A program made the translations under genes and the position numbers. The notes under the pieces were generated by a model, which was not told the DNA's origin, ran no database searches, and worked only from the letters and a program-made list of their open reading frames with translations. From Flavobacterium sharifuzzamanii (GTDB lineage Bacteria > Bacteroidota > Bacteroidia > Flavobacteriales > Flavobacteriaceae), in the NCBI RefSeq assembly GCF_003254585.1, contig NZ_QJGZ01000041.1:186001-250000 (forward strand): a stretch of DNA of 64,000 nucleotides, in the 5' to 3' direction. Shown piece after piece: positions 5,726 to 15,639 of this stretch (its first letter is position 1; every line of letters begins with the position of its first letter).

Positions 5726-6388
5726 ATGAATGCAAAAATACTTCTAGGCTCACTAGCTGTTACTTCTTTATTTTTTATTTCCTGTAAAAAGGAATTAGAA
5801 CCGCAAGAAAGTACAGCATCTTCCGAATTAGTAAGATTAGGACTTGCAAAAGATACCACAAAACCTGCTGCGCCAGTGGTGCAAAACCCTGTAGCGAACC
5901 CAAATACAGTTTTAAGCGATACAAAAGGAATTAATCCTGCTCACGGACAGCCAGGCCACCGTTGCGATATTGCGGTTGGAGCGCCTTTAAATTCTGCGCC
6001 AACACAGCAAGTTCAAGCAACTCAAGGACAAACAGTGCAAGTAAATCCGAGTCAGCAGCAGAAAATGGTGACAACTACAACTGTTGCGCCAGTTAAAGTG
6101 GCAAAAGGAATGAATCCGCCACACGGACAGCCAGGACACAGATGCGATATTCCTGTTGGAGCACCTTTAAATTCGCCTAAAGCAACAACAACTGCAACAA
6201 CGACAAATACGGCTCAAAGCGGAACAGTTACGCAAAACTTTAGCGTTACTCCTCCAGCATCAAACCCAGTTCCTGCATTGTTAAGCACAGAAGGTACTGA
6301 AGCTACGGTAGCAGACGGAATGAACCCGCCACACGGAAAACCAGGTCACCGTTGCGATATTGCAGTTGGCGCACCTTTGCCAAAATAA
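5726..6388 (+). CDS. Lipoprotein with three HGxPGHRCDI repeats
   Basis: A 220-residue lipoprotein: signal peptide and lipobox LFFISC with the lipidated Cys at residue 20. Three near-identical 23-residue repeats end at residues 90, 150 and 220, each with the core NPxHGxPGHRCDIxVGAPL (Cys 80, 140, 210). They are separated by low-complexity Thr/Ala/Pro/Gln-rich linkers. Each repeat carries two His and one Cys in a fixed pattern, which suggests metal, haem or thiol chemistry at the cell surface, but no function is known to me. ATG at 5726. The gene is monocistronic, followed by a strong bidirectional terminator. Confidence 0.85.
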   Translation: MNAKILLGSLAVTSLFFISCKKELEPQESTASSELVRLGLAKDTTKPAAPVVQNPVANPNTVLSDTKGINPAHGQPGHRCDIAVGAPLNSAPTQQVQATQGQTVQVNPSQQQKMVTTTTVAPVKVAKGMNPPHGQPGHRCDIPVGAPLNSPKATTTATTTNTAQSGTVTQNFSVTPPASNPVPALLSTEGTEATVADGMNPPHGKPGHRCDIAVGAPLPK

Positions 6389-7477: not shown

Positions 7478-8137
7478 TTAAACATTTTTTCTTAGGGCAA
7501 TCTCATTGCGAAACTCAAATAACATTCGGGATAATTCCACTCTATTCGTATTGTTCTTATTTAAGAGTATTGCATTAATTTCTTGGTTAATAAAAAATTT
7601 AAAGTATCTAGGAATGGAGCTGAAACAGATTTCGTTACTGATTAATTTTTTAACGACTTTAATTGAAATCTTAATGTATATGTCGTTGAATAAATTAATC
7701 TCATCAATACTCAATTTTTTTTTAATATCATTTTTGTTGTTATGAATTGTTAATTCCTCGTTAGAGCTAATTATGTTACCAAAGCCTAATGAAAAATTTG
7801 AATGAAAAATTTTTTCTATGTACTCTGATGATCTACAACTTAACAGAAAAACATCATGATCTTCAAAAAAATGATTTCCCCAATTAACATCTAAAAAGAG
7901 TTTTTCATATTCATGACTTTCGTCTGGTACATAAAGACCATAGGAGCTACCGTGTCCTAGAAATATTATTAATGATTTCGGATTTAAATCGCCTAATAAT
8001 CTTTTTGCCATTAAAACAGAATCGTTTGTAGAATCAAAAGAAACATAATAATCACTAAATTCTTTTTCAAAATTCTTTAAAAATAATGTTGAATTATCTA
8101 CGGCATGTAACATTAATATTTTTTTGTAATCATTCAT
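7478..8137 (-). CDS. Caspase/CHAT-like cysteine protease, candidate effector
   Basis: A 219-residue protein with the caspase-clan dyad arrangement: a hydrophobic strand then His62 in LIIFLGHGSSYG, and a second strand then Cys101 in HDVFLLSCRSSEY. This His-after-strand and Cys-after-strand pattern is what CHAT/caspase-like peptidases show. The first 55 residues look like the leading Rossmann-like strands (KKILMLHAVDN). The C-terminal 90 residues are helical and carry no motif I know. It is the last gene of the operon, overlapping the receiver gene by 8 bases, so it is probably the output. Substrate unknown; no gasdermin-like or obvious target gene is adjacent. No family-level search was possible. 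Confidence 0.7.
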   Translation of the reverse strand: MNDYKKILMLHAVDNSTLFLKNFEKEFSDYYVSFDSTNDSVLMAKRLLGDLNPKSLIIFLGHGSSYGLYVPDESHEYEKLFLDVNWGNHFFEDHDVFLLSCRSSEYIEKIFHSNFSLGFGNIISSNEELTIHNNKNDIKKKLSIDEINLFNDIYIKISIKVVKKLISNEICFSSIPRYFKFFINQEINAILLNKNNTNRVELSRMLFEFRNEIALRKNV

Positions 8138-8858
8138 TTAGTTTCGAATAATGTGCTATTGAAAGATCAATAAATTCACGAATAAATTTTAAACCTTTCA
8201 TATCTATATTATCTCCGTTTAAAATTTCATTAATACTTTTTCCGTCATAATTTATATTACCTGTATTAATTACCATGTTTTGGTCAAACGACAGTATTGA
8301 ATCTAGAACAATATTTGATATTGTATTTGAATCTCTAAGTAATGTAATAATTTCATTAAAATGTGTACCATCTCTTTTCCAAAATTTGATTTTAAGTTGA
8401 AGTATATCAGCAATAAAATTATTTAATGATAGATCATCAATTTTGTCTTTTCCATTACAAACTTCTTGCGAAATTTTTGATAATATATATTTGGAAGCTT
8501 TTTTTATATCTGAAGAATAAACAAAGAAAGGTTTTGATTTTAATTTATCTTTTGTTTTTATCACATATTCTAAAATATCCCATCCTACTAATCCTTTGTA
8601 GTTTTCATTACTATCTATAATGTTCCAATCTGTGACAATTAAATTGATATTTATGCCAGCAGTTTTTTCAATTATTGCAGTGGTAAATTCCTCTTCCTTA
8701 AATTCATTTTTATCAGCATCAAAGAAATCGCTTGGATTTATGTAAATAGGAATGCATTCATAACCATCAATTTTTACACTCCTCTTATATTGATTTTCTG
8801 CTTCATCGTCATCATCAAATACAAGATATCTTGATTGAAATTTATCAGTAGATGCCAT
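8130..8858 (-). CDS. Response-regulator-like receiver-domain protein
   Basis: A 242-residue protein whose first ~130 residues read as a receiver domain: strand 1 and acidic pocket YLVFDDDDEA (Asp15-18), the likely phospho-acceptor Asp77 in NLIVTDWNI, and the switch Ser at 115/116 in PFFVYSSDI. The usual Lys after strand 5 is not obvious. Residues ~135-242 are a helical domain with no DNA-binding motif I recognise, so it may signal by protein contact rather than as a transcription factor. It begins one base after the kinase-like gene and overlaps the protease gene, which suggests a relay between the two. Confidence 0.7.
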   Translation of the reverse strand: MASTDKFQSRYLVFDDDDEAENQYKRSVKIDGYECIPIYINPSDFFDADKNEFKEEEFTTAIIEKTAGININLIVTDWNIIDSNENYKGLVGWDILEYVIKTKDKLKSKPFFVYSSDIKKASKYILSKISQEVCNGKDKIDDLSLNNFIADILQLKIKFWKRDGTHFNEIITLLRDSNTISNIVLDSILSFDQNMVINTGNINYDGKSINEILNGDNIDMKGLKFIREFIDLSIAHYSKLNE

Positions 8859-8859
8859 A

Positions 8860-11373
8860 TTATATAATTATTTGAAAAGCTGCTCCTTTAAGTTTTAGAT
8901 TGTTACCTAAAAATTTAATATCTCCTTTTAAATTATTTACTCTTTTTTTTACATCAAACATGCCTATTCCCGAACCGCGTTCAGATGATTCTCTTACGCC
9001 TAGTTCAAAAATAGATTCAGAATTATTTATTAATTTATCAGACATGCCTAAACCATTATCATAATAATTTATCTGTATTTTATCATTTAGTTTTTCAAAA
9101 TCTATGAGAATTTCATTTGCTTTAGCTTTTATGGAATTTGAAACTAAATTATCTAAAACAATGTCTATTTCTATTGGATTGATTAAATAAAATTTGTCAA
9201 AAACCCCATCAATTTTAAATTTTAAGTTTGGTCTAGAAACATTTAAATCTTCAATATATTCCCTTATATATATTGGCAAATTTATTCTCTGTTTAGTATG
9301 CTTATAATCAAAATTTGATTTGATTATGATTTGCGAAACTTTTATGGCCTTATCGATATTGCTTTTAATAGAATAAAGTTTGTCTTTTACATCTTTACTG
9401 AGATTTGATACCAGTAATTCATTGACATACGTAGAAGCATTTCCGACATAGAGATCTATTGAGTGAACTAATTGTTCAGCATCTTCACTTAAAGTTTTTC
9501 TCGTTGCATTTAAATATTGATTTTTCTTTGTTTCAATATTTAATTGATTTTTTAAATTTTTATTTTTTTCTTCCTCTTCTTTCGCTTTTTGTTCAGCCTT
9601 TATTTTTGCTAACTCTGCTTCGGCTCTTTCTTTTTCTTTTTTTAATGTCTCAAGTTCGGCTCTTCTCCTTTTTTCTTCTTCTTCTCTCTGTTTTTTTTCA
9701 GCTTCTTCTCTTTTAAAACGTTCTAACTCAGCTTGCTTTTCAGCTTCAATACGTTTATTTCGCTCTTCGTCTTCTCGCTTTTCAGCTTCTTCTTTTTCTT
9801 TTATAATTCTATTAAAACTCTCTTCTGTTAATTTGACTTGATTTAATAAATCACTGTCATTTGTTTTCTCAGCTATTTTTTCTAAATCTGAAAGAAACTT
9901 AGGCTGAATGACATCAAGTTTTTCATTAACTAAATTAACGAGTTCTCTATTGTAGGTAATAATTTTAATGTCATTGTCATCACTCAAAGTTTTTATTAAG
10001 TTTACAAAATCAATTTTACTTCCTAAATTATTTAGTGCATCTTCATAAGAATCTTTATCCTTGTCATTTTGTAATTCTAATCTAAATTGTTGAGCAATTT
10101 CGTTGTCTAAAAAATAATTTTTTCTTTTAAAAGCCTCACCCCAAAGAACCCCTACCACGTATCTTTCTAATCTTAAAAAAGCTTTTTCTTTAAATAAATC
10201 AAATAACACTTTTTTCCCTAAAGTTTCAACTAAACCGCCAGCTCTACTGGATACTTCTTTAAATTCATTAAAATTTTCAGTTATTAAGTCAACTTTGCCA
10301 AATAAATCCCTTGTGCCAAGAAAACGATTATATCCTTGTTGTTTTCTATTATCTAATTCCCAGCTGTCATCTCCAACGTTTCCATAAGGTTGAACTCGGA
10401 AGCCATTTTTGAAAAGAAAAACATTCCCATATTTTACAGGCTCTATATCCATCAATCTTCCAAAATTGATTTTAGCGCTCCTATTTAAAAAATAAAGGTT
10501 TATTTCTAAATCGTCAATTAAGGATAAATATTTATTAGGCTCTTCAATATGATAAATTAATGCACCCCTATCGATAATCTTGGTAGTTATTATTTCATCT
10601 TTTAGTTTTAAATCAATTTGAGTAGTTTTTAAATCAAGAACCTTTAAAATACTATTGTCAATGATTCCATTTATTTTAAGCTTGTTATTAGAGTTATTGT
10701 CAATCTGGATGAATTGTTTTGCTTCAATTTCAATGCTAAAACTATTCTCTTTTGAAAAGGGATTAATGAGTTTTTCTAATGACCTCCTTAATTCTCTTAG
10801 TTTGTGAATGTCCCAATTAGAATTTAAGTTTTGGATTTTTAAAATCGTGCCATGATTTTTATTTTTTGGGAAAATATTATTGTTTTCAATGCTTTCAAAT
10901 GGAATTTGTATTGAATCAAAACTTTGTTGTGAATCTTTTTCAAATTCCCCCCAATCGACATCTACTTTATAAGTTTCATTAATGTCTACTTTTGATGTGA
11001 TAAGTTCTAATTTAGTTCCCAATCGATCACAAGAAAAACGACCAACACCTTTTGCTCCAGCATAAAATCTTCTGGATTTTAAATTGTTTAAATGAGAATC
11101 TCTTGACAAGTCTATGTCTTCAGTTTTATCCTTTTTAGCAGAATATGCTACTGCAAACCATTTTTTTTCTAAATCATTTTTTGACATACCTTTACCGTTG
11201 TCAGCAATAATGATCTCATCTTTATTAAAAATAACTTTTACAGCATCTGCGTATGCATCGTATGAATTTTTAACTAGTTCATAAATCGCAATAAAATCAT
11301 CGGTAATTAAATCTCTACCAATGATATTTTTCATTCCTGTTTTTATGTCAAAATTTAATACACCTTTATCCAT
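8860..11373 (-). CDS. Double-GHKL ATPase: MutL/MORC-like N-terminus, histidine-kinase-like C-terminus
   Basis: An 837-residue protein with two GHKL ATP-binding modules. N-terminal module: ELVKNSYDA (Glu32, Asn36, Asp39), DNGKGM (58-63) and GAKGVGRFS (106-114), as in MutL/MORC/Hsp90-type ATPases. A following region contains FLFKNGFRVQPYG and RKQQGYNRFLGTR, as seen in ATP-binding proteins of restriction-linked loci. A Glu/Lys/Arg-rich coiled coil spans about 520-620. C-terminal module: helical DHp-like region with a candidate His637 (QLVHSIDLY, without the usual Glu after His), N-box NLVSNSIKA (~745), DNGLGMS (~772) and GSGIGMFDVKKRV (~800). It overlaps the methyltransferase gene by 8 bases. 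Likely role: ATP-driven sensing coupled to phosphorelay; inferred. Confidence 0.8.
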   Translation of the reverse strand: MDKGVLNFDIKTGMKNIIGRDLITDDFIAIYELVKNSYDAYADAVKVIFNKDEIIIADNGKGMSKNDLEKKWFAVAYSAKKDKTEDIDLSRDSHLNNLKSRRFYAGAKGVGRFSCDRLGTKLELITSKVDINETYKVDVDWGEFEKDSQQSFDSIQIPFESIENNNIFPKNKNHGTILKIQNLNSNWDIHKLRELRRSLEKLINPFSKENSFSIEIEAKQFIQIDNNSNNKLKINGIIDNSILKVLDLKTTQIDLKLKDEIITTKIIDRGALIYHIEEPNKYLSLIDDLEINLYFLNRSAKINFGRLMDIEPVKYGNVFLFKNGFRVQPYGNVGDDSWELDNRKQQGYNRFLGTRDLFGKVDLITENFNEFKEVSSRAGGLVETLGKKVLFDLFKEKAFLRLERYVVGVLWGEAFKRKNYFLDNEIAQQFRLELQNDKDKDSYEDALNNLGSKIDFVNLIKTLSDDNDIKIITYNRELVNLVNEKLDVIQPKFLSDLEKIAEKTNDSDLLNQVKLTEESFNRIIKEKEEAEKREDEERNKRIEAEKQAELERFKREEAEKKQREEEEKRRRAELETLKKEKERAEAELAKIKAEQKAKEEEEKNKNLKNQLNIETKKNQYLNATRKTLSEDAEQLVHSIDLYVGNASTYVNELLVSNLSKDVKDKLYSIKSNIDKAIKVSQIIIKSNFDYKHTKQRINLPIYIREYIEDLNVSRPNLKFKIDGVFDKFYLINPIEIDIVLDNLVSNSIKAKANEILIDFEKLNDKIQINYYDNGLGMSDKLINNSESIFELGVRESSERGSGIGMFDVKKRVNNLKGDIKFLGNNLKLKGAAFQIII

Positions 11374-12595
11374 TATATAAAAGTTGTTTTAAAACCAAGC
11401 CACTTTGTTCACTAAATAATGGAGGAATTGCGTTTCCAATTTGCGTATATCTAGGAACTTCTTTAGTTCTCAATATTCCGCCTGTAGTATATTTTCCTTG
11501 AAAAACATACCAATCTGGAAATGACTGAATACGTGCATATTCACGAACTGTCAAAATTCGTGGCTCAGAATAATGTATATAATCATCAGGAAGAGTAGTA
11601 ATTGTAGGCGTTTTATCAAGCCCATTTAGCGGAATTACTGTTCTCTTTTTAATATTATATTTTTCTTGTATAATTTTACTAATGTTGAAATTTCTTCTTT
11701 CAAGAGAAGTTTCATCAAGAATATTTTTAAATCGATTTATTATTTCAGTTGAATGTTTTGGAAAACGATGACTGTCTGCAATTTTATCATTAATGCCTAC
11801 TCGCATTAATTTTTGATAGTTTCCCTTTTCCTTGCCATAAATTCCAGATTGAAAAGTTGGATATCCGGGGGTTTCTTTTAATCCATTTTGTTTAAATAAA
11901 TCAGAAATCGCATCTTGAAGATTCGTTTCGACACTTAATCCTTTTTCTTTTAAAAATTCAAAACGATTGTCTTTTAAAGATTCGAAAAACATTTCGGCTT
12001 TTTCTTGTGTAGCGTTTGGCAATGTTTTTTTAATGCCAACAAGTATAAAACGAGTTCTTTTTTGAGGTACGCCATAATCGCCAAAATTCACTAATTGACC
12101 TCTTACAAAATAACCAGCATCATTTAATTTCTGCGTAACTTGGGTAGAGTAAGCAATACCTTTTTCTTTACTTTTTTTGAATTCCATTGTAAAACCTTTT
12201 ACATTTTCGAAAAAAATAATTTTAGGTTCAACAATTTTTACAAAATTTATATATGAATTAATAAGGTCATTTCTTAAATCAAATTCATTTCGTTTTCCTG
12301 CCATTGAAAAACCCTGACAAGGCGGTCCACCAGCGATCATAGTGACTTTCCCTTTAAGCTTTTCTAAACTTGAAGCATATTTATCAAGCACAGTATTGAT
12401 TTCATGTGCTTGTTGAGGTAGCCAATTAGGCCAATTAAAATGATTTTTGTTTTTTATTAAATTGTGTTCAAGTGTTTTAAAAGCGTCAGGACTTTTCTCA
12501 ATAGCAAAAAGGCCTTGCCATCCTGCTTGATGCAATCCTAATGATAATCCCCCGCAGCCAGCAAAAAGGTCTATGTAGGTAAATTTATTTTTCAT
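11366..12595 (-). CDS. dcm: DNA (cytosine-5-)-methyltransferase
   Basis: A 409-residue C5-cytosine methylase of Dcm type. Motif I DLFAGCGGLSLGLHQAGW at the very N-terminus, motif IV with catalytic Cys GGPPCQGFSMAGKR, motif VI ENVKGF, motif VIII QKRTRFILVG, motifs IX-X RILTVREYARIQSFPDWY and QIGNAIPPLFSEQ. The target-recognition region lies at about residues 225-335 and does not reveal the site. An open frame extends to a GTG at 12635-12637, but ATG at 12593-12595 puts motif I at residue 8 as in most relatives. It follows the Vsr-like gene and overlaps the GHKL gene. It would modify host DNA in a restriction-modification-like role. Confidence 0.93.
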   Translation of the reverse strand: MKNKFTYIDLFAGCGGLSLGLHQAGWQGLFAIEKSPDAFKTLEHNLIKNKNHFNWPNWLPQQAHEINTVLDKYASSLEKLKGKVTMIAGGPPCQGFSMAGKRNEFDLRNDLINSYINFVKIVEPKIIFFENVKGFTMEFKKSKEKGIAYSTQVTQKLNDAGYFVRGQLVNFGDYGVPQKRTRFILVGIKKTLPNATQEKAEMFFESLKDNRFEFLKEKGLSVETNLQDAISDLFKQNGLKETPGYPTFQSGIYGKEKGNYQKLMRVGINDKIADSHRFPKHSTEIINRFKNILDETSLERRNFNISKIIQEKYNIKKRTVIPLNGLDKTPTITTLPDDYIHYSEPRILTVREYARIQSFPDWYVFQGKYTTGGILRTKEVPRYTQIGNAIPPLFSEQSGLVLKQLLYNG

Positions 12596-12686
12596 TAAAA
12601 ATTTGTAAAAATCCAAATTTATTAATAAAAAGTTCACGATGTTAATTTTTTGAGCAAAATCTTACAATATAAACAAAAAAATATTC

Positions 12687-13154
12687 TCAACCAATTTTTG
12701 TCTCCAAATATTCATTTACTAAAGAAATACATTTTTCGATATCTTTTTTGATTTCATGATCCCAAAATCTAAATATTTTATAGCCTAAATTTTCTAGTTT
12801 AATATTGTTTTCTCTATCCTTTTGCATGTTTCTTTCAATTTTAGAAATCCAGAAATCACGATTTGATTTTAGTTTTACTTTTTTTTCTTCCCAATTATAT
12901 CCATGCCAAAATTCTCCGTCAATAAAGATCACGAGTTTTAGTTTTTTATTTGTGATATCAGGATTTCCGGGAAGACTTTTATCGTGCTTTCTATATCGTA
13001 TTCCTGCTTTCCAAAGCTCTTTTCGAAATAGTATTTCAGGTTTTGTGTCTTTTCCCTTAATTTTAGACATAAGTTTACTTCTCTCAGGAGTTGTATAAAA
13101 ACCATTCGCTTCTTCAAATCTTAAGACTTTTATTTTCTGTTCAGAGTAATCCAT
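12687..13154 (-). CDS. vsr: Vsr-like (very short patch repair) endonuclease
   Basis: A 155-residue protein with the full Vsr pattern: RSKLMSKIKGKDTKPEILF, GIRYRKHDKSLPGNPDI (the Asp of the PD motif corresponds to the metal-binding Asp of E. coli Vsr), LVIFIDGEFWHG and a C-terminal YKIFRFWDHEI. Vsr nicks T:G mismatches created by deamination of 5-methylcytosine in Dcm sites. Here it leads an operon with Dcm and a GHKL ATPase and no other nuclease, so it may instead serve as the restriction nuclease, as has been proposed for such loci. ATG at 13152-13154, 16 bases from the end of the upstream AsmA-like gene on the same strand. Confidence 0.92.
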   Translation of the reverse strand: MDYSEQKIKVLRFEEANGFYTTPERSKLMSKIKGKDTKPEILFRKELWKAGIRYRKHDKSLPGNPDITNKKLKLVIFIDGEFWHGYNWEEKKVKLKSNRDFWISKIERNMQKDRENNIKLENLGYKIFRFWDHEIKKDIEKCISLVNEYLETKIG

Positions 13155-13170
13155 TCCATTTAATTAAAAC

Positions 13171-15639
13171 TTATTTATCCTTCTTCCCCCACTTAACCTT
13201 CATTTTTCCTTCATTATCATAAGCAATCAAATGCAGGACAATTCCGCGTTCGCGAACAGCTTTTCGTTCTTCTTTGGTGGCGAGTTTGGCGTCGTTTTTA
13301 GAGTTTCTTAGCGGGATGGTGAGGGCGAGATTGGTGCCTCGGCCGAAAGAGTAAATGCCATTTATGTCAAAATTTAAGACGCTGGAACTTATGGTAAGTT
13401 TATTGACATCGATTTGTTCTCCGCGAAGATTGAGCGAACCAGACAAATCGCTGAAAGTAATATTCTCTACATCGCGAAACGGAAAAGCAAATTTGCCGAC
13501 TTTCATAATCGGTTCAAAATTGATTAAGGCACCTTGGTTGACATTAAAATCTAGTTTTCCTTTCATAGAATTGACAATCAGATCGCCTTTACTGCTCATT
13601 AAACCTGCAACATTGGCATTGCTGGTCAATCGTCCGCGAATGTTTTTTGGACTAAAAGATTTGATTCCGAAATTATTAAAAGACCTTAAAAAACTCGCAA
13701 TATCAACTCGGTTTACCTGTGCGTTTGAAGTAAAAACATAATGGTTACCGCTTGGCTGTACAGAACCGCTAAACGTTATGCTTCCGCCAGAAGTCTGCAA
13801 TGTTCCGTTTTTGAGCAGAATCTTAGAATTTAGCATCTGGATTGTGGCCTGAGTGTTGGTTGCGGTAAGCGATCCGTAGGTAATGTTATCGGCTTTAAGA
13901 TTAATTACGGCTGCACATTTTTCTATTACCGATCGCAACTGATTCGTAAAGTTGACATTCTTCTCAACTGGTTTTTTCTCTGCCACTTTTTGTTTTGGAG
14001 AATTTTGCAGAACGCCTAAAAACTGTTTTACATCAATATTCGGGCAGTAAATATTCCAGTTTACCACCATTTTTTCGGGTGCGTCGTAATAGAGATTCAG
14101 GAAATTATCGATTTTTCCGTCAATGCGAATAATGTTCTTTTTGTGTTTGTAGGCTATTTTTTTAATGTAAAGCGCCTGTTGAGTAAACGACAGTTGTACA
14201 GCCGTTTTTTCGGCATGAATCTTTTTCGGAATATAATCGAATGTGGCATCAGCAATATCAACATCGCCTGTAAATTTTGGTTTATTGATGTACAAATCGA
14301 CAATATCAAACTGAAATTTCAAATTGGCTTTGGCATGACCGCTTTCAAAGTGAATAATTTTCTCGTTCATCATTCCGTTGAGTTTCGAAATATCAAAATC
14401 GGAATTTACAACTCCTGTGGCAATTGGTTTTTCGAGATTATTGATAACTGCTTGTGCAATTGTCAACGGAATACTTGCGTATTCGGCTTTAAAATTGGTT
14501 AAAATAATAGCCGAGTTCGGATCGCTGGATTCCTTTTCGGGTTTAAAAGTGTTAGTGAAAATTCCTTTGAAACTGCAATTGGTAAACAAGCCATCTGGAA
14601 TACTCACTTCGTTATCGCGAATATCTGCCTGCACCACAATTTTTGGATCTCCTTCAACATTCAAATCGCCTTTTATGTCGCAGTTTACTTTAATCGGTTT
14701 TTTTATATCAAATTGGTTAAGTTTAGAACTGATGTTTGCTGATAATAAATTGGAAGCATTTCGCCATAAAATATCCGTTCCGATATTGATTCCGAAAAGC
14801 GAATTGTTTTTTCCAATATTAAAATAAGCGACAATATCAAAAATGTCAGAACCAATTTTAAGTCCTTTGGTTTTAATATCTATTTTCTGATTGGCTTCAG
14901 CATACGAAATATCAAAATTACCTTCCAGAACTTTCTCCTTAGCAAAACTTCCGTGAACGGTATTAAAGGCTAGACTATTAATTTTGGTTTTCAAATACAG
15001 ATTGGTCTGCCAGTTGTTGTCGCCATAATTTACTTTAGATTCTAGACTTGCCACATCAAAATCAAACAATTTATGACCTAGATGATTGTCAATAATAACA
15101 TGAACATCGTTTAGGTTTACTTCGTCAATTGTCGTTTCGGGTTTCTCTTTATCGGTTTGCGTTTTCTTCTTTTTCGGTTTAAAAATATTGACGTTAGAAT
15201 AACCGTTTTCGGCTTTATAAATATAAATATCAGCGTCGTTGATTAAGATTTTATGAATGTTGATTTCGTGCTGCAACAAACTCAAAATGTTCAAACGCGC
15301 TTCGATTTCTTTTGCTCTCAGCAAAGTATGTTTGTGGCTCTGCCATTGGTTGTCTTTTATTTCGACATCATTTAACGCCAATGTAAAATTCGGAAAACCA
15401 GTTAGAAACTTATAATGAAAATCTCTAATATGAAATTTACCATTTATGTTTTCGTTGATTTTGGTATTGACTTTAGCAATAATTTCGGCTTTATTTCGAT
15501 TAAAATATATAGACAAACCTCCGCAGGCAAGCAAAAGAATGGCAATTAAGCCCAAGATAAAATATCCAAAACGTTTGGCGTATTTTTTAAAAGAATCAGA
15601 TTGCAGAAAAGATTTGGTTTTGGATAAAGCTTCTTTCAT
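13171..15639 (-). CDS. AsmA family inner-membrane protein
   Basis: An 822-residue protein anchored by one N-terminal transmembrane helix (about residues 24-46, FGYFILGLIAILLLACGG) with a large periplasmic part. AsmA N-terminal features: KAEIIAKVNTKINENINGKF and TGFPNFTLALNDVEI. The C-terminal AsmA-like region has repeated strands (LKNGTLQTSGGSITFSGS, GALINFEPIMKVGKFAFPF). AsmA/TamB-like proteins are long bridge-like beta structures implicated in lipid transport to, and homeostasis of, the outer membrane. ATG at 15637-15639. Lys-rich end. It precedes the defence operon on the same strand, but a functional link is unlikely. Confidence 0.85.
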   Translation of the reverse strand: MKEALSKTKSFLQSDSFKKYAKRFGYFILGLIAILLLACGGLSIYFNRNKAEIIAKVNTKINENINGKFHIRDFHYKFLTGFPNFTLALNDVEIKDNQWQSHKHTLLRAKEIEARLNILSLLQHEINIHKILINDADIYIYKAENGYSNVNIFKPKKKKTQTDKEKPETTIDEVNLNDVHVIIDNHLGHKLFDFDVASLESKVNYGDNNWQTNLYLKTKINSLAFNTVHGSFAKEKVLEGNFDISYAEANQKIDIKTKGLKIGSDIFDIVAYFNIGKNNSLFGINIGTDILWRNASNLLSANISSKLNQFDIKKPIKVNCDIKGDLNVEGDPKIVVQADIRDNEVSIPDGLFTNCSFKGIFTNTFKPEKESSDPNSAIILTNFKAEYASIPLTIAQAVINNLEKPIATGVVNSDFDISKLNGMMNEKIIHFESGHAKANLKFQFDIVDLYINKPKFTGDVDIADATFDYIPKKIHAEKTAVQLSFTQQALYIKKIAYKHKKNIIRIDGKIDNFLNLYYDAPEKMVVNWNIYCPNIDVKQFLGVLQNSPKQKVAEKKPVEKNVNFTNQLRSVIEKCAAVINLKADNITYGSLTATNTQATIQMLNSKILLKNGTLQTSGGSITFSGSVQPSGNHYVFTSNAQVNRVDIASFLRSFNNFGIKSFSPKNIRGRLTSNANVAGLMSSKGDLIVNSMKGKLDFNVNQGALINFEPIMKVGKFAFPFRDVENITFSDLSGSLNLRGEQIDVNKLTISSSVLNFDINGIYSFGRGTNLALTIPLRNSKNDAKLATKEERKAVRERGIVLHLIAYDNEGKMKVKWGKKDK

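Follow-up and report, generated by a model that had tools for sequence, protein, structure and literature searches.

The Detocs gene set consists of DtcA, DtcB and DtcC, and the effector best characterised for it is an ATP-cleaving PNP. Systems closer in gene content are found next to R-M genes. Bellieny-Rabelo et al. (2021; PMC8011034) reported HATPase_c_3, HEF_HK and HATPase_c combined in 174 of their 222 sequences, alongside genes for receiver-like proteins, C5 methylases and Vsr, and suggested that they form a two-component system connected with R-M and paraMORC ATPases. In HEF_HK, the core His is followed by Glu or Asp. In the available part of that paper, the receivers have no known domain other than Response_reg_2, and neither a caspase-like nor a HEPN output is mentioned. 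The broad architecture described below (two GHKL modules, a receiver-like neighbour and a C5 methylase) is thus already known since 2021. The paraMORCs, or prokaryotic MORCs, of R-M operons (Iyer et al. 2008; PMC2292703) are likewise GHKL ATPases with methylase and Vsr neighbours, but their partners, unlike those seen here, are SFII helicases and restriction endonucleases; the text available for that paper does not use the words receiver, HisKA, two-component and caspase.

Here we analyse a locus of this general kind in Flavobacterium sharifuzzamanii, within a stretch of 64,000 nucleotides (hereafter, the window). Five close ORFs lie on the minus strand and encode, in the order of transcription, a Vsr endonuclease, a C5 methylase, an 837-aa sensor-kinase protein, a 242-aa receiver-like protein and a 219-aa caspase/CHAT-fold protein. 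Neighbours among the last four share an 8-base overlap or stand 1 base apart, and the gap between Vsr and methylase is 49 bases. The features are as follows.

12687..13154, minus strand: Vsr endonuclease, 155 aa, first gene of the apparent operon (PF03852, E 3.7e-28; TIGR00632, E 8.5e-40)
11366..12637, minus strand: C5 cytosine DNA methylase, 423 aa as listed, GTG start (PF00145, E 1.4e-57)
8860..11373, minus strand: double-GHKL sensor-kinase protein, 837 aa (Pfam, A5 alignment, AlphaFold2 model, VIA-align)
10144..11373, minus strand: sensor-kinase residues 1-410, MORC/SMCHD1-type GHKL ATPase module with Glu32 and Asn36 (HATPase_c_3 at 28-163; SMCHD1 match)
9496..9855, minus strand: sensor-kinase residues 507-626, long charged helices (model; identity drop against locus L015)
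9319..9483, minus strand: sensor-kinase residues 631-685, predicted DHp helix pair, His637 codon 9463-9465 (model; His637 in 50/50)
8863..9297, minus strand: sensor-kinase residues 693-837, histidine-kinase CA domain with N, G1 and G2 boxes (PF02518 at 734-833; kinase fold matches)
8130..8858, minus strand: receiver-like protein, 242 aa, Asp77 codon 8628-8630 (conserved columns; two of five long homologues with PF00072)
7478..8137, minus strand: caspase/CHAT-fold protein, 219 aa, putative effector, His62 codon 7952-7954, Cys101 codon 7835-7837 (model, invariant residues, VIA-align)

The sensor kinase and its two partners

The original prediction concerned the 837-aa protein. Its description of that protein as two GHKL modules is confirmed, with an agreement far beyond chance, but its context fell short: the protein is one part of a five-gene operon, whose effector the prediction lacked. 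At the N terminus, Pfam places HATPase_c_3 at residues 28-163 (E 3.7e-21, above cut-off). The MutL/MORC-like motifs named in the prediction are present in the translation, and Glu32, Asn36, Asp58, Gly60, Gly62, Gly106, Lys108, Gly109 and Gly111 are each identical in all 50 rows of the alignment (A5). AlphaFold2, run on A5, gave a model of the whole protein (mean pLDDT 77.0, pTM 0.50) for which Foldseek returned rows of Hsp90, SMCHD1, histidine-kinase and MutL type. By VIA-align, residues 9-412 resemble the SMCHD1 ATPase module (6mw7_D; Z 17.2, rmsd 5.3, 328 aligned). Residues 30-233 also match the NCBIfam model of the BbrUII/HgiDII restriction enzyme (NF050001; E 4.3e-20), at 71.8 bits against a cut-off of 550. 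The charged coiled-coil stretch expected between the modules appears in the model as long helices at residues 507-574 and 578-626.

The C-terminal module matches HATPase_c (PF02518) at residues 734-833 (E 9.4e-15, above cut-off). His637, Asn746, Gly802 and Gly804 are each identical in 50/50 rows of A5, whereas the neighbours of His637 vary. The residue that follows it is Ser638 in the window; among the 50 rows, it is Q in 13, S in 10, H in 8, I in 7, N in 6, V in 2, D in 2 and others in the remainder, so that it is acidic in only two rows (both Asp) and not acidic in 48. This bears out the expectation that a putative phospho-His near position 637 would lack the usual Glu after it. In the model, one helix (residues 631-654) carries His637 and is followed by a second (660-685) and by an alpha/beta CA domain with the N, G1 and G2 boxes. 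A predicted structure without a DHp helix pair had been set in advance as counting against a kinase; the pair is predicted, although with modest confidence (10-residue pLDDT means of 44-79 across residues 631-690). VIA-align relates residues 628-837 to the histidine kinase YycG (4zki_B; Z 19.5, rmsd 4.1, 185 aligned) and to HK853-RR468 complexes (Z about 18). The histidine-kinase-like boxes that had been described are likewise present in the translation. Invariant residues, model and folds are all in line with the proposed fusion of a dimer-closing sensor ATPase to a kinase output, but the architecture had already been published in kind.

The receiver-like protein of the window has no Pfam match at E<=1. 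In the 29 caspase-type loci (window included; see below), Asp16 and Asp77 are present in 29/29 and Tyr114 and Ser115 in 28/29, and no column of the alignment holds Lys at 80% or more. Five long homologues were scanned with Pfam: PF00072 passes the cut-off in L012 and L068, lies below it in L055, and gives no match in L015 and L103. Pfam found no DNA-binding output (0 matches) in the window receiver or in six of its homologues from main-family loci. Invariance of the His and of the receiver Asp, together with co-inheritance of kinase and effector (below), favours phosphorylation as the putative activity of the C-terminal module; the non-conserved residue after the His and the lack of a conserved Lys in the receiver speak against it.

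The 219-aa protein also has no Pfam match at E<=1. Its model has a mean pLDDT of 94.1. Foldseek alone gave no match to it at E<=0.001 and did not find caspases; a VIA-align comparison was therefore made, and this gave a caspase-like fold. The top row is SAVED-CHAT (8tl0_C; Z 12.6, 162 aligned), with separase (11.1), MALT1 (10.6) and Craspase TPR-CHAT (7y85_D; 10.0, 156 aligned) further down, and caspases and legumain likewise among the top rows. His62, Gly63 and Cys101 are invariant in the 24 aligned rows of the family, and His62 and Cys101 provide a putative catalytic dyad. We read this protein as a putative caspase/CHAT-fold protease.

Related loci and exchange between halves

A pattern-based scan of a species-genome collection returned at least 593 stretches, at least 529 of which encode relatives, and viral contigs contributed 55 loci. 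The main family comprises 98 non-duplicate loci (>400 bits and >700 aa), plasmid and whole-genome loci included: the best 80 of the 529 genome relatives, 14 of the 55 viral-contig loci, and L006, L010, L011 and L012. Since only the best 80 of 529 were used, this census is weighted towards close relatives. Left out were the window's own copy (L001) and duplicates (L002-L005 and L009), as were L007, L008, L104 and L108-L146, which lie below the score limit; L147 gave no row. Named sources comprise Bacteroidota, Pseudomonadota, a spirochaete, planctomycetes, Verrucomicrobia, Patescibacteria and the archaeal Methanimicrococcus, some of these phylum names being our presumed assignments; many are MAGs, with binning as deposited.

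Two types of output were found. Loci in which the first downstream ORF has 260-400 aa form a long-receiver class (66 of the 98 listed loci), characterised by an R-x4-H motif, and those in which it has 160-259 aa form a short-receiver class with a caspase-like ORF (28 loci). Four fall in neither class: L011, L079 (receiver runs off contig end), L088 (reading frame stops early) and L092. The long class was counted by receiver length alone, because a label based on the motif pattern is circular for counting the motif; the motif-pattern count is 65, and L103 is the added locus. All 66 long receivers have the Arg and His of R-x4-H as well as the receiver Asp and Tyr, and in 62 the Arg is followed by Asn. 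All 28 short-receiver loci carry a caspase-like ORF in the locus, although the contig ends within the motif of L044 and L006 gives a weak match (E 1.4e-9). The window and 23 of the 28 loci went into the caspase profile; the matches outside that set are L006, L010, L028, L044 and L050. No long-receiver locus has a caspase-like ORF (0/66), and no listed locus has both outputs. In the five long receivers scanned, Pfam gave HEPN_Swt1 in L012 and L015 (E 0.004, below cut-off), a DUF4145/HepT-like match in L103 (below cut-off) and no HEPN match in L055 and L068. From their motif, the R-x4-H outputs are probably RNA-cutting HEPN-type effectors.

A methylase relative is present in 96 of the 98 listed loci and lies directly upstream on the same strand in 70. 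Vsr relatives occur in only 11, and Vsr is thus accessory. An HNH-type third gene was considered and set aside: of 38 third-gene candidates, 10 are Cys-rich proteins from the distant viral-contig set (L111, L122, L126, L127, L138, L141-L143, L145 and L146), one of which, L141, matches HNH (E 6.1e-6); alignment A4 left these ten out.

Comparison of individual loci showed that the two ends of the sensor can have very different relatives. In L015, from Flavobacterium swingsii, identity to the window is 85% for the methylase and 88% for the GHKL module, against only 24% for the kinase module, and the output is HEPN-type. In 40-residue windows along the two sensors, identity is 75% from residue 521 and 12% from residue 601, a drop that lies within the charged helix. 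L045 is the converse case (GHKL 50%, kinase 75%), with a caspase-like output. Among pairs whose GHKL modules are at least 70% identical, kinase identity is 61-98% in 33 caspase-type pairs and 48-89% in 36 HEPN-type pairs, but 18-27% in 49 mixed pairs.

The same pattern is seen in trees, which were of a quick kind without bootstraps and covered 93 of 99 rows (the 98 listed loci and the window); the divergent L006 was omitted, as were L011, L079, L088, L092 and L103, all unclassified. On the GHKL tree, the effector label changes 17 times (11 changes forced by well-supported branches; shuffled mean 24.4), and on the methylase tree, with 91 rows, 19 times (shuffled mean 24.3, lowest shuffle 20). 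On the DHp-CA tree, it changes once (shuffled mean 24.5), as it does with the CA part alone. The kinase module tracks effector class; the GHKL module and the methylase do not. A single change on the kinase trees is the pattern expected if each kinase is tied to a receiver and effector of its own. Across 4656 pairs, identity in the methylase correlates with that of the GHKL module (rho 0.59) more than with that of the kinase module (0.27). Within a class, the picture is less clean. In the 29 caspase-type loci, the strongest correlation of the kinase module is that with the receiver (0.67), as expected, but the methylase shows similar values for GHKL (0.45), kinase (0.47) and receiver (0.43), and a higher one for the effector (0.57); in 63 HEPN-type loci, methylase and receiver correlate at 0.60 and kinase and receiver at only 0.41. 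The clean separation thus lies between effector classes. At the level of sequence, then, the recognition and output parts act like interchangeable halves, and during evolution the sensing and killing halves seem to have changed partners on many occasions. The point at which the relatives' recognition and output halves diverge, as judged from the alignments, is the predicted charged helices at residues 507-626.

The site of the operon differs between congeners. An AsmA-like flanking gene is present in 7 of the 13 genus genomes searched, that of the window included. In two of the six other carriers, which were compared with the window, the window sequence matches up to 7477 (or 7492) and again from 13175 (or 13179), and the sequence between these flanks has no match in either. 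By our reading, the interval encodes an XRE-type regulator, a C5 methylase and another ORF of 435 aa in one congener (L154), and has one HNH-like ORF in the other (L155). As these two congeners have other restriction-type ORFs at the same site, restriction-type genes seem to replace each other there.

Proposed mechanism and alternatives

We consider it somewhat more probable than its negation that the operon is an immune signalling system on the R-M plan, that is, an R-M-derived phosphorelay with exchangeable effectors. The C5 methylase, judging from its family, would mark self DNA, and the MORC/SMCHD1-like N-terminal ATPase would serve as a clamp, driven by ATP and responsive to DNA without the mark. 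Clamp closure would be relayed along the long helix to the DHp-CA module, which may autophosphorylate on His637 and pass the phosphoryl group to Asp77 of the receiver, as residues, folds and gene order suggest. The receiver would then switch the adjacent caspase/CHAT-fold protein, a putative protease that may disable the infected cell. Sister systems couple a similar recognition half to a kinase whose receiver protein bears the HEPN-type RNase motif. Phosphotransfer, protease activity, phage defence, and methylation or phage DNA as the trigger are all putative elements of this scheme.

An immune phosphorelay is suggested by the sensor and kinase folds together with the invariant His, the receiver Asp and the His and Cys of the caspase-like protein; by the alternation of two known defence-enzyme classes at the output position (66 and 28 of the 98 listed loci); by the one effector change on the kinase trees, against 17 for GHKL and 19 for methylase; and by the other restriction-type ORFs at the same site in two congeners. 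Against it stand the non-acidic residue after the His in 48/50 rows, the receiver without a Lys column or Pfam match, the modest DHp confidence, the failure of Foldseek alone to find caspases and the unclean separation of the halves within a class.

Several of these points would fit a C-terminal module that binds ATP without phosphorylating and passes on a conformational signal, with the receiver-like protein as a docking subunit between sensor and effector. The variable residue after the His, acidic in only 2/50 rows, and the absence of a conserved receiver Lys would be as expected, and the VIA-align fold matches include DivL (4q20_B; Z 17.2), a kinase homologue that dispenses with the usual His. 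Docking, however, needs neither an invariant His nor an invariant Asp, yet His637 is invariant amid varying neighbours, as are the N and G2 box residues, and the receiver Asp is found in 29/29 caspase-type and 66/66 long-receiver loci; we regard this explanation as unlikely. That effector and methylase share one operon would also suit an addiction module, in which kinase and receiver silence the effector as long as the methylase is there, the cell dies once the operon or methylation is lost, and defence is secondary; post-segregational killing by R-M systems is stated in PMC8011034. Such a module does not by itself explain the exchange of outputs, and we give it little credence, although sequence cannot separate it from an immune phosphorelay.

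Two further explanations appear very improbable. One, suggested in PMC8011034, is that a two-component system regulates the methylase and Vsr next to it; the gene neighbourhood is of the kind reported there, but what was found at the output is either an R-x4-H motif or a caspase fold, and none of the seven receivers scanned has a DNA-binding Pfam output. The other, to which we attach the same very low probability, is that of ordinary restriction, with cleavage of unmodified DNA by the GHKL protein or by Vsr. The match of residues 30-233 to NF050001 would be in keeping with this, but it falls far below the family cut-off, the C-terminal half resembles histidine kinases rather than a nuclease, and few of the listed loci have Vsr.

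Returning to the phosphorelay, a more general statement would be that these are R-M-derived receptors in which a MORC-type ATPase and a methylase report non-self DNA, uncut, through a His-Asp phosphorelay to interchangeable death effectors (a caspase-like protease or a HEPN RNase), with recombination inside the coiled coil joining the halves; we judge its chances to be evenly balanced. Such a system would join three usually separate things, DNA self-marking, a two-component phosphorelay and a caspase-fold protein. If so, R-M-type recognition could trigger a cell-level response without a restriction nuclease, in a bacterial counterpart of modular receptor-to-caspase signalling. The natural chimeras, with recognition halves 85-88% identical and unrelated kinase-effector halves, would offer a ready test of two-component partner specificity, and HEF_HK-like systems, whose function was left open in 2021, would gain a likely output and a direct test.

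Comparison with known systems

In one soluble protein, both HEF_HK/Response_reg_2 systems and the window combine HATPase_c_3, a DHp-like part and HATPase_c, and both have a receiver-like gene and a C5 methylase adjacent and Vsr (often, in HEF_HK systems) nearby, as far as the available text of PMC8011034 describes them. We nevertheless rejected membership. The sensor has no match to PF19191 (HEF_HK) at E<=1, and its own genome holds three sub-cut-off matches, all on other contigs; the receiver has none to PF19192 (Response_reg_2) at E<=1, nor has its genome at E<=0.001. The acidic residue described after the HEF_HK His is replaced by Ser in the window, and is Asp in 2/50 relatives. A genuine PF19192 locus (L161) has methylase-like, double-GHKL and receiver genes in the same order as the window, but its sensor is only 31% identical to that of the window, over 171 residues. 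Given the lack of matches to both families, we treat the window proteins as a divergent branch.

Other systems share single parts. The BbrUII/HgiDII family has the N-terminal GHKL stretch in common with the sensor (residues 30-233), but the window protein is far under the family cut-off and has a kinase module at its C terminus. MZA, considered on account of the MutL-like motifs in the sensor, was rejected: MzaB scores 24.3 bits against a cut-off of 850, and no Z1 (PF10593) was found in the genome at E<=0.001. In PADLOC-DB at E<=0.1, where Detocs models are possibly not included, the sensor matches only REase_II and MzaB, and the receiver and caspase-like proteins match nothing. Ymh-family HEPN domains, according to the accessible text of PMC3710099, are fused directly to paraMORCs; here, the R-x4-H motif sits on the receiver protein, and the architecture is therefore different. 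The CHAT proteases of SAVED-CHAT and Craspase share their fold with the 219-aa putative effector, which, unlike them, has no SAVED or TPR part and no Pfam match at E<=1, and adjoins a receiver-like protein as its neighbouring partner.

The nearest functional precedent is Detocs, a defensive two-component system that couples two-component-type signalling to an effector, as proposed here; the available text of its description (PMC11249213) mentions neither a methylase nor a MORC-type sensor. A figure legend of the DefensePredictor paper (PMC13092281) has HATPase and REC among the abbreviations for predicted, unvalidated systems, and some overlap with the present systems is therefore possible. 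A search of largely open-access papers, without supplements, gave no earlier account of the caspase-like and receiver-HEPN outputs or of their exchange. What looks new here is the presence of a putative effector in the operon, and the way in which each effector class is inherited one-to-one with its kinase module.

Candidate output genes in and beyond the main family

In nearly all main-family loci, the putative output is either a caspase-like ORF or an R-x4-H (HEPN-type) motif on a long receiver. More distant loci encoding a double-GHKL sensor, on viral contigs, carry a Cys-rich protein after a short receiver-like ORF (L111, L122, L126, L127, L138, L141–L143, L145 and L146; L-numbers denote loci with sensor relatives). 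The one such protein scanned, that of L141, matched HNH (E = 6.1e-6). The Cys-rich protein of these viral-contig loci may represent a third output type. In a further group of distant double-GHKL loci (L109, L112, L113, L115–L121, L124, L125, L133–L135, L139 and similar ones), the ORF following the sensor gene is approximately 440–465 amino acids long; the one scanned, from L119, had no Pfam match.

The receiver is just ~140 amino acids long in these close relatives, and neither a caspase-like ORF nor an R-x4-H domain was found adjoining it:
L009/L092, 9045–9470 (L009 coordinates), receiver
L011, 5121–5534, receiver

Plasmid relatives of the sensor

A plasmid search with the sensor matched 92 records, 43 of them from Campylobacter and 61 with conjugative typing. 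Identity to the sensor was below 60% in every match and none reached 80% coverage, the alignments lying mainly in the N-terminal GHKL half among the matches listed.

Operon site and neighbouring ORFs

An annotated Piwi-domain protein (231–2462) lies near the L008 locus, a putative SIR2-like ORF (10581–12416) lies near the L020 operon, and a lipoprotein-like ORF in the window (5726–6388) repeats a motif built around HGxPGHRCDI. The site between the AsmA-like and HPF-like genes holds restriction-type ORFs that differ among three congeneric genomes:
window, 7478–13174
L154, 2607–5689
L155, 2569–3397
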